Origin: Hyphomicrobiales bacterium
GTDB taxonomy: Bacteria > Pseudomonadota > Alphaproteobacteria > Rhizobiales > Rhizobiaceae
Assembly: GCA_900466005.1 (NCBI GenBank)
Contig: UEGQ01000007.1
Coordinates: 186,001-250,000 of the forward strand
Direction of reading: 5' to 3'
DNA length: 64,000 nt
Part shown: positions 21,996-24,289 of the stretch, in pieces
How the letters are laid out: each line of letters opens with the position of its first letter
Numbering within the stretch: position 1 is the first letter of the stretch
Notes under the pieces: model-generated
What the model saw: only the letters and a program-made list of their open reading frames with translations
Database searches by the model: none
Told to the model about the DNA's origin: nothing
Position numbers and translations under genes: made by a program

Positions 21996-22607
21996 TCAGA
22001 GGAATTCGGTGAGGGCTTCGCGAGACTGCAGGGTGAGGAATTCGATCGCGACGCCCTCGACGAAATGTCGGACGACGCGGCCGCGCATGTTGCCCACGCG
22101 CACCGCCGTGCCGATCGGCGGGCGAATGTCGATGTCGATCGCAGCTCCCGAGAGCGACAGGTCCATGAGGCGGCATGGATAGCGCCGGCCGTCTTCGAGG
22201 ACGAGCTCGGTGCGCGTCTGGCGTGGCGTGAGGCGATCGTGGCGGCGATCCTCGGGCAGGCCGAGTTCGTGCTTGTTGGCGATCCAGGTGAGCTGCGCGG
22301 CGAGCTTCTCGCGCTTGCGGCCGGTCGCCACGATCGACATGACGAAGCCGTCCTCGGTCAGCTTTATGGTATTGCCTTCCAGGCGCCCGAGGTGGTCGAT
22401 GTAGGCGATGACCTTCTCGCCGGGTGCTGGACGACCCGCACAGGCGAACCGCACGTCTCCCGGAGACATGTCGATGACCTGGCAGACATACTCGTCATAG
22501 CTGGCGAGCATCAACCGTCCCTGAAGGCTGACGCTGACGCGCTGGAACGCCCGACGCCCGGCGGGAGAAACTGCACTACCGGTCTGGGATGCCTGCGAAG
22601 TGAACAT
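21996..22607 (-). CDS. Double PilZ domain protein
   Basis: Cyclic-di-GMP effector candidate of 203 residues with two PilZ-like domains. The first has GRRAFQRVSV followed by VIDMSPGDVRF (a degenerate D/N-x-S-x-x-G); the second has DRRHDRLTPR and LMDLSLSGAAID, a canonical RxxxR plus DxSxxG pair. No other domain or membrane segment is visible, so output would be by protein-protein contact, for example on motility or polysaccharide export. It is divergent from the sRNA/rhomboid region. Confidence 0.88.
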   Translation of the reverse strand: MFTSQASQTGSAVSPAGRRAFQRVSVSLQGRLMLASYDEYVCQVIDMSPGDVRFACAGRPAPGEKVIAYIDHLGRLEGNTIKLTEDGFVMSIVATGRKREKLAAQLTWIANKHELGLPEDRRHDRLTPRQTRTELVLEDGRRYPCRLMDLSLSGAAIDIDIRPPIGTAVRVGNMRGRVVRHFVEGVAIEFLTLQSREALTEFL

Positions 22608-22723
22608 GGTGTCGATTCTTGGCGGTTCAGCTATGGTTAAATCCTTACCGCCGAGCGGTTAACAGAAAGTTTTGCGAGCGTTGTGCCAATCCGCAGCCAA
22701 GAGGTGAAACCGCCGCGGTTAAT

Positions 22724-22755
22724 CTTGTTTTCGAAACTGGATTGCATGCTAATAT
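22724..22755 (+). promoter_or_regulatory. Candidate promoter of the putative sRNA
   Basis: TTGTTT at 22725-22730 and TAATAT at 22750-22755 are spaced 19 bases, slightly long for sigma-70. Transcription from about 22761 would begin exactly at the first hairpin of the structured RNA. Confidence 0.45.
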
Positions 22756-22760
22756 TACCT

Positions 22761-22874
22761 GTGGCACATCGTGCCCATTGATTTCGAAGGGTCTCCTTCG
22801 GCACCAACTGTCGAGCACGGCTTTCCCGTGCATTCGATTGGCCGTCCGGTTATCGAGCCGGACGGCTTTTTTTT
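22761..22874 (+). ncRNA. Putative intergenic small RNA with T8 terminator
   Basis: About 114 nt in the gap between the PilZ gene (-) and the rhomboid gene (+), folding into four successive hairpins: GGCAC/GTGCC (22763-22775), CGAAGG/CCTTCG with loop GTCT (22785-22800), GCACGG/CCGTGC (22815-22831) and a 9-bp terminator GCCGTCCGG/CCGGACGGC (22841-22866) followed by eight T. The second hairpin exposes TCTCCTT, complementary to Shine-Dalgarno sequences, like several rhizobial trans-acting sRNAs. I cannot assign it to a named family. Confidence 0.72.
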
Positions 22875-22899
22875 GCCCCTTGTCTGCTGTAAGGCTCCG

Positions 22900-23682
22900 A
22901 TGGCGAGTGGTCACAGGGATGCGCCAGACATGGATGAGACGCCGAAACGGCCCTCGGGCGACGATTGGCCGGGTGGCGAATCAGCCGACGGTGGCGCGGC
23001 GCGCACGCCGATCTTCAACATGCCGACCGGCATTCTGCTTTGCCTTGCGGGGCTGGCCGCGATCTATTTCGTCCAGTCGACGCTGCTGTCGCCGAATTCT
23101 GCCGAGTGGCTGGTCATAGAGTTCGGCTTTTCGCCGCTGCGTTACGTCTACGGATTCTCCGAGCAGGGTTACGAATGGCTCTGGACGCCGCTGACCTATT
23201 CCTTCCTGCACGGCAGTCTCGAACATCTCGCCTTCAATGGCCTGTGGCTTGCTGCCTTCGGCACGCCGGTGGCGCGACGGATCGGCGGATGGCGCTTCGC
23301 AGCATTGTGGGTGGTATCGGCCGCCGGCGGAGCACTGATGCATGCACTCGTGAACTGGGGGCAGCCGACGCTGATGATCGGTGCGTCAGGGGTCATATCC
23401 GCACTCATGGCGGCGGCGTGCCGCTTCGCCTTCGGACCGGGAAGATCGGTTCGCGTCCAGCCTGACCGGCCGCTCCCGAGACTTTCGATTCTCGCGGCGC
23501 TCCGTCAGCGGACGGTGGTGGTCTTCATCGCCGTCTGGCTCTTCGGTAATCTCGTGATTGCGATCGGGTTGCCGCTGGTGGGCGCGCTCTCCGGGGCGGT
23601 TGCCTGGGATGCGCATATCGGCGGGTTCCTGGTCGGTTTTCTGGGATTTGCCGCCTTCGACCGCCCGCAACGACGTGGTTGA
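22900..23682 (+). CDS. Rhomboid family intramembrane serine protease
   Basis: Polytopic serine protease of about 260 residues with six hydrophobic segments after a hydrophilic N-terminus. The nucleophile is in LMIGASGVISALMA (GxSG) and the catalytic His in AWDAHIGGFLVGF. HGSLEHLAFNGLWLAAFG is the oxyanion-region motif with conserved His and Asn. The frame is open from 22771, but the sRNA terminator ends at 22874, so the start must be downstream. The ATG at 22900 has AAGG at 5 bases; the ATG at 22930 is the alternative. The substrate is unknown. Confidence 0.9.
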   Translation: MASGHRDAPDMDETPKRPSGDDWPGGESADGGAARTPIFNMPTGILLCLAGLAAIYFVQSTLLSPNSAEWLVIEFGFSPLRYVYGFSEQGYEWLWTPLTYSFLHGSLEHLAFNGLWLAAFGTPVARRIGGWRFAALWVVSAAGGALMHALVNWGQPTLMIGASGVISALMAAACRFAFGPGRSVRVQPDRPLPRLSILAALRQRTVVVFIAVWLFGNLVIAIGLPLVGALSGAVAWDAHIGGFLVGFLGFAAFDRPQRRG

Positions 23683-23854
23683 ACCGGCCTGACGATCGCG
23701 CGGGCGCAAACCCCTCGTTTCGCAGGGTTGGCCGAACCGTCGAACTTGTTGCAAACTTCATCGAATAGGGGCACCATTTTTTCAGTGTTCCGTCGCGGCC
23801 GGGAGGGGCTGATGGCGGTCCATTGAATGCCAGCGATCTGGAAAAGGAGGAGCC

Positions 23855-24289
23855 ATGTCTGCAACGGTCAGGAGCATACTCGAAGAGAAGGGCCGCAACG
23901 TCGTCACCATTGCGCCCGATACCACCCTTGCTGACGCCGCGCACATCCTGGAGGAGAACCATATTGGCGCTGCCGTGGTTTGCGACGCGAAGGGAAAGAT
24001 CGCCGGAATCTTTACCGAACGTGACCTCGTCCGGGCCGTTGGTCGCAGCGGTTCGATCAGTCTGAACCAGTCGGTCGCAGCCGTGATGACCAAGAACGTC
24101 CACCTCTGCAGCGAGGAGACGACCGTCAACGAACTGATGGAAGTGATGACCGGGCGGCGTTTCCGTCACGTTCCGGTGGAGAAGGACGGCAAGCTCGCCG
24201 GCATCATCTCGATCGGGGACGTGGTGAAGTCGCGCATTCGCGACATCGAGACCGAGGCGGAGCAGATCAAGGCCTATATCGCCGGCTAG
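23855..24289 (+). CDS. CBS domain pair protein
   Basis: 144 residues forming a stand-alone Bateman module: CBS1 about residues 8-60 (AAHILEENHIGAAVVCDAKGKIAGIFTE, read in parts) and CBS2 about 73-130 (VNELMEVMTGRRFRHVPVEKDGKLAGIISIGDV). Such proteins bind adenine nucleotides and often regulate other proteins. AAGGAGG lies 6 bases before the ATG. It is convergent with the patatin gene. The partner cannot be told from sequence. Confidence 0.9.
   Translation: MSATVRSILEEKGRNVVTIAPDTTLADAAHILEENHIGAAVVCDAKGKIAGIFTERDLVRAVGRSGSISLNQSVAAVMTKNVHLCSEETTVNELMEVMTGRRFRHVPVEKDGKLAGIISIGDVVKSRIRDIETEAEQIKAYIAG

Follow-up and report, generated by a model that had tools for sequence, protein, structure and literature searches.

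Relation to described rhizobial small RNAs

By description, the RNA closest to the one reported here is SmelC165 of S. meliloti. It is described as a trans-encoded, single-copy sRNA with a poly-U tail, 116 nt long by its coordinates, which occurs throughout the Rhizobiaceae with both neighbours kept and is absent from A. tumefaciens C58 (PMC3927594, PMC7143759). On the S. meliloti 1021 map SmelC165 is listed at 910 kb, whereas the present locus was interpolated to ~1.41–1.47 Mb. The interpolation was made between the cobalamin riboswitch (954 kb) and AbcR (1.699 Mb; PMC7143759) and gave 1.47, 1.45 and 1.41 Mb for genomes G274, G130 and G405, which presupposes that these three belong to Sinorhizobium and have retained the order of genes. 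The position of SMc00982/983 near 954 kb could place the locus near 1 Mb if the gene numbering follows the map.

Two other described sRNAs share features with the present RNA. EcpR1 (SmelC291) is a trans-acting RNA of ~100 nt with stem-loops and a conserved place, but its excerpted description puts it at 1.412 Mb between divK-pleD and rpmG, not between PilZ/PAS_5 and rhomboid (PMC4414408). The alpha-r14 / NfeR1 sRNAs of the Rhizobiaceae likewise have three hairpins; they differ in that their anti-Shine-Dalgarno letters are described as unpaired in all loops (PMC7143759), whereas here CCUUCG is paired and the loops vary.

A covariance search of Rfam 15, one of the checks proposed by an earlier sequence-only reading of this DNA, returned no family at the gathering cut-off in the window (the whole stretch of 64,000 nucleotides that was analysed) or in 13 homologous loci. 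Below the cut-off, the Qrr RNA (RF00378) was matched weakly along the full length of its model (25.2 bits, E 0.014; gathering score 50), the Rhizobiales-2 RNA (RF01723) was alike at its terminator-like end (20.2 bits; gathering score 40), and suhB/MmgR (RF00519) reached 14.5 bits against a gathering score of 41. The Rhizobiales-2 RNA was matched in none of 60 relatives, yet the controls also matched nowhere. An sRNA at the PilZ-rhomboid locus is not described in the excerpted text of PMC2864571, PMC4414408, PMC7143759, PMC3927594, PMC2873474, PMC4241560, PMC2245857, PMC2573895, PMC2881028 or PMC4432633, the supplements of which may list the transcript. The RNA would be a new family of a known kind, unless it proves to be SmelC165, which it resembles by description, or SmelC416, another RNA considered. 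For an sRNA family absent from Rfam, there are now a covariance model, predicted ends and a known phylogenetic range, and the bacteria that carry it are ones in which sRNA function is actively studied.

Locus and gene neighbourhood

The RNA sits in the gap between two genes that point away from each other:

21996..22607, minus strand: PilZ gene (PF07238), divergent neighbour
22777..22874, plus strand: predicted small RNA, ~98 nt, with its start placed from the predicted promoter and its end from the T-run
22930..23682, plus strand: rhomboid gene (PF01694), neighbour, with a start common to near relatives

The rhomboid gene had been thought to start 25 bases after the terminator. The shared start is the ATG at 22930, 55 bases past the T-run, and the ATG at 22900 is not shared.

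Five of the six adjoining frames received Pfam names (Peptidase_C93, PilZ, Rhomboid, CBS and Patatin). In a survey of neighbours, PilZ and rhomboid were present in 28 of 28 loci and CBS in 27, and the RNA was immediately upstream of the rhomboid gene, on the same strand, at every locus inspected. The PilZ gene was on the strand opposite to the RNA in 55/55 loci. Its distance from the RNA was 140–170 nt in 28 loci (21 of the window's genus and seven of named near relatives) and 834–942 nt in 27 loci of other genera. In all of these 27 (L097–L123), the longer gap is filled by a minus-strand MopJ-like PAS_5 gene, for which PF07310 was confirmed in both of the genes tested in Pfam. Within the stretches fetched, none of the 28 near relatives of the window had a PAS_5 gene. 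The two groups differ by the loss or gain of a gene next to an RNA that both retain, and a lineage with the RNA but without PAS_5 offers a natural test of joint function.

PMC4432633 gives S. meliloti SMc01000 as the orthologue of MopJ, a Caulobacter protein with a single PAS_5 domain; the abstract of that paper ties MopJ to CtrA re-accumulation. The PilZ-like SMc00999 is named among genes with upstream CtrA sites (excerpt of PMC4414408), and the promoter of the transglutaminase-like gene SMc00998 is reported to have a CtrA site (excerpt of PMC4241560). Judging from gene content, SMc00998–SMc01000 would be the orthologous S. meliloti locus. With PilZ and MopJ-like genes next to it, the sRNA can be tested for a link to cell-cycle or stress control.

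Predicted structure of the RNA

The RNA is predicted to fold into the following elements; the percentages are pairing cells in the alignment of 55 loci described below.

22784..22801, plus strand: hairpin 1, CGAAGG/CCUUCG core (helix 1, 94.1% of cells paired, two-sided changes at 3/5 pairs)
22801..22809, plus strand: linker GCACCAACU, with a conserved GCAC, mostly unpaired, candidate pairing site
22810..22838, plus strand: hairpin 2, variable in sequence (helix 2, 83.7% of cells paired, two-sided changes at 6/6 pairs)
22840..22874, plus strand: intrinsic terminator with T8 at 22867–22874 (helix 3, 96.7% of cells paired, two-sided changes at 8/10 pairs)

The covariance models R1 and R3 matched positions 22775–22874 at 94.7 and 73.8 bits, respectively. 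The folding energy of the stretch 22724–22880 was −56.1 kcal/mol, compared with an average of −41.9 for shuffled sequences (z −4.05), and none of 200 shuffles was as good. The strong terminator noticed earlier, with no plus-strand coding gene preceding it, was borne out: its stem has 12 pairs, eight of them GC, followed by T8. A terminator scan of 22000–24000 found seven sites against a mean of 1.8 in shuffles, and the terminator of the RNA had the most pairs. The T-run was 7 or 8 long in 51 of the 55 homologues.

Sixteen members were folded one by one before a model was built, and the terminator was present in 16/16 and all three hairpins in 12; in L018, L027, L032 and L039, hairpin 1 or 2 was partial or missing from the best single fold. 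The fold z-scores of these members ranged from −1.03 (L031) to −4.96 (L014). Across the 55 homologues, the terminator helix had a median probability of 0.99 and hairpin 1 reached at least 0.5 in 48, while the 5' end and the linker were unpaired (medians 0.86 and 0.79). The GCAC after hairpin 1 was kept in at least 97% of homologues. The consensus of the 5' segment is CAUCACUUCA, from which the window's subclade has diverged to CAUUGAUUUC. No shared reading frame was found, an ATG or GTG frame of at least eight codons being present in only 9/55 homologues.

Four hairpins had been proposed in the gap. Those at 22784–22801, 22810–22838 and 22840–22867 have conserved counterparts, whereas the first (GGCAC/GTGCC, 22763–22775) overlaps a conserved promoter element and, of the 28 near homologues, is limited to those of the window's subclade (L014, L015 and L077). 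The second hairpin had also been suggested to expose TCTCCTT, complementary to a ribosome-binding site. This loop mechanism found no support: CCUUCG is paired, as the 3' side of the stem, UCU alone lies in the loop, and the loop letters vary.

Covariation

The proposed check of hairpin conservation, with a model built from homologues, came out in favour of the structure. In the wider alignment of 55 loci (54 distinct sequences), all 55 of which were matched, 92.5% of cells pair, and 17 of the 21 pairs, together with 162 cells, changed on both sides. None of 500 shuffles reached any of the pairing or covariation measures, and sliding the partners by one column lowered the pairing from 92.5% to 42.9% and 51.2%. 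Duplicates and 27 hits of the family scan without a fetched locus were left out of this alignment. In a narrower set of 40 matches (28 distinct), 91.2% of cells pair and 15/21 pairs changed on both sides. The pair counts lean towards the structure, because the later alignments were fitted to a structure that had first been drawn up by hand on the basis of single folds. RNAalifold recovered only the terminator from alignment A3, because hairpin 2 is misaligned there. In alignment A6, the source of model R1, the row of L026 is off by one base in hairpin 2; alignment A8, with one row misplaced, was left out.

Promoter and upstream box

Two conserved elements lie upstream of the RNA:

22716..22722, plus strand: CGGTTAA, remnant of the conserved box TTAAGGTTAA and a possible operator, judged by conservation
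22742..22766, plus strand: predicted promoter of TTG (22742–22744), 16 nt and GTGGCA (22761–22766), with fixed spacing in homologues

The pattern TTG-N16-nTG(G/C)(C/G)A was present in 28/28 near homologues, and the relaxed form TTG-N16-nTGn(C/G)A in 52/55 (missing in L110, L122 and L123); the search pattern fixed TTG, TG and A and left the other letters free. From its sequence, the element would be a sigma-70 promoter with a −35 and an extended −10. The first T of TTG was taken as −35, and +1 would therefore be A22777, within two bases of the first position of the model in 51 of 52 homologues. A 5' end near 22761, as previously suggested, found no support. The pair CTTGTT/TAATAT named as its promoter has a 20-nt spacer, and a consensus scan of 22000–24000 yielded no promoter. 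TAATAT is not conserved (TAACAT and TAATTA in the two nearest relatives), and CTTGTT falls on the degraded second half of TTAAGGTTAA.

The box TTAAGGTTAA, which was outside the search pattern, ends 13 nt upstream of TTG in 49 of the 52 anchored homologues. The three homologues of the window's subclade retain its first half only, with the GGTTAA end 19 nt before TTG. The CtrA box is given as TTAA-N7-TTAA in the excerpted text of PMC4241560; the conserved box is TTAA-N2-TTAA and thus lacks the spacing of a full CtrA box.

On the minus strand, ~65–88 nt upstream of the RNA, TGGCA-N6-TCGC (TTGC in one case) was observed in 28/55 loci; in the window it lies at ~22673–22687, and it points towards PAS_5 or PilZ. 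A −24/−12 spacing is that of sigma-54 promoters. The element has this spacing, but C rather than T precedes its GC.

Phylogenetic range

The window is close to Ciceribacter lividus, the RNA of which (L077) differs at 1 of 100 positions. DNA similarity revealed the RNA in six of 60 genomes, including its own. Searching with the rhomboid protein, which matched 56 of the 60 genomes, gave 30 loci; 19 of these were aligned, model R1 added L023 and L040, and a genome scan added that of G025 (L059). In the window's genus, the RNA is thus present in 22 of 36 genomes, its own among them. It was absent, by R1 and R3, from nine rhomboid loci (L028–L030, L033, L036–L038, L041 and L043; at most 20.0 bits). 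In a genome-wide scan of G003, G004, G007, G018 and G027, the best R1 hits were 20.3–29.6 bits or none.

An exact pattern scan of 84,980 species found 22 stretches: nine in Rhizobium, five in Ciceribacter, three in 'Rhizobiales bacterium', and single ones in Peteryoungia, Agrobacterium albertimagni, Allorhizobium, 'Rhizobiaceae bacterium' and a MAG called Arenimonas. The exact pattern reaches close forms only, because it was written from known members. The RNA of the contig titled Arenimonas (JAIBEK010000059.1, L081) is identical to that of L021, and this contig is probably a mislabelled or mixed MAG.

Model R2 gave 57 hits in 14 of 109 genera among 394 sampled genomes of the family, which is the Rhizobiaceae to judge by the named hits of the pattern scan; the R2 scan used strict filters, and weak matches were lost. 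Model R3, applied to 397 genomes of the order, gave six hits inside the family, at the same locus wherever inspected, and four outside it (L161–L164, 35.9–36.7 bits). These four were rejected as family members; their neighbours are missing and they look like plain terminators. Because they score similarly, the three lowest R2 hits (36.6–37.5 bits) are insecure. Model hits away from the locus were weak (at most 33.3 bits), and the RNA was not matched in plasmid records. Extra copies in the window's own genome were also discounted: of 14 blastn matches, 13 were only 15–22 nt long, and the three inspected (L007, L008 and L013) looked coding-like by eye, without the layout of hairpins and terminator.

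Proposed function and search for targets

Compensatory changes, a promoter at fixed spacing and a fixed gene neighbourhood all strongly support the earlier proposal of a plus-strand small RNA at this terminator, and very likely it is an RNA gene of its own. Conservation, and conservation only, indicates its own promoter and an intrinsic terminator with a U-tract, the features of trans-acting, Hfq-dependent sRNAs. We propose, with a probability of roughly 65%, that the locus encodes an independently transcribed, intrinsically terminated regulatory sRNA of ~98 nt that would base-pair in trans, the likeliest mechanism for it. Transcription would start near 22777, controlled by a regulator that binds the TTAAGGTTAA box, the U-tail would keep the RNA stable, probably by Hfq, and pairing may occur via the unpaired 5' segment CAUCACUUCA and/or the GCAC(CAAC) linker. 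Several findings count against this proposal: the searches described below gave no conserved target, the window's subclade has not kept the consensus of the candidate pairing segment at the 5' end, and the position before the rhomboid gene is constant, as that of a leader would be.

A complement of 11 nt of the RNA 5' end had 22 matches in nine genomes, nine of which were the RNA gene itself. We claim no target enrichment, because the rough expectation from base counts is ~26, despite the absence of any match to the reversed control pattern in all nine genomes. No conserved gene start was found among the 13 other matches. L134, L138 and L141, which represent one orthologous place with an open frame on the other strand by eye, were rejected as targets. 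Two matches (L130 and L143, in two genomes) span the start of queD; as a conserved target it was discarded, since a search of 30 genomes, among them 27 carriers of the RNA, did not find it in 17. Duplex energies with the starts of the neighbouring genes were no better for cognate than for non-cognate pairs (PilZ, −31.6 vs −31.3; rhomboid, −40.9 vs −40.3).

Because the RNA is divergent from the MopJ-like PAS_5 gene beside PilZ in other genera, a role in cell-cycle or nutrient-stress control can be guessed at, a weaker claim than that of the sRNA itself. A fuller picture, which we consider unlikely as a whole, would make the sRNA the RNA arm of a cell-cycle/starvation locus. One TTAAGGTTAA operator between divergent promoters would drive both PAS_5 and the sRNA, and the 5' end CAUCACUUCA would repress a small set of targets; PAS_5 would have been lost in the Ciceribacter group and the 5' end re-targeted in the window's subclade.

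Alternative explanations and the terminator-rhomboid interval

The alternative already raised from the sequence is a rhomboid leader, in which the RNA would be the 5' part of the rhomboid mRNA and a signal would control read-through of the terminator. One further element bears on it:

22890..22895, plus strand: TAAGGC, possible −10 of a promoter of the rhomboid gene's own

In 28/28 near homologues, T8 is exactly 8 long and TA follows exactly 15 nt after it (22867–22895 in the window), as would befit a separate promoter. In other genera this spacing after the T-run is not kept, which favours a leader. Against a leader, the best fold with the 3' arm of the terminator free was less stable by 11.6 kcal/mol or more (median 16.0) in 55/55 homologues, so no competing antiterminator is evident. 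The scarcity of reading frames noted above leaves no leader reading frame, and the nine genus members that have the rhomboid gene but not the RNA likewise speak against it. The part of this alternative that stands is the place of the RNA just before the rhomboid gene at every inspected locus, for which reason it keeps some weight, and we regard it as quite unlikely.

The RNA could instead bind a protein, as a sponge or scaffold, rather than pair with mRNA. Conservation is higher in hairpin 1 and GCAC than in any long single-stranded seed, and the target searches gave no conserved target, both of which would suit such a role; the unpaired 5' end and the U-tail, on the other hand, appear more like those of pairing sRNAs, and we judge protein binding to be very improbable. 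That the element merely insulates the rhomboid gene from stray transcription of the divergent promoter, leaving a short RNA without a role, agrees with a strong terminator that has no coding gene upstream but is scarcely credible, as hairpin 1, the conserved GCAC and the own promoter at fixed spacing would all be superfluous for an insulator. A trans-pairing sRNA thus remains our preferred reading.

The spacing of T8 and TA looks as if the T-run of the terminator belonged to the next promoter. In one subclade only (L023 and L026), the RNA linker CGGCACCAA has a 9-nt complement in TTGGTGCCG, which lies in the ribosome-binding region upstream of the rhomboid start.
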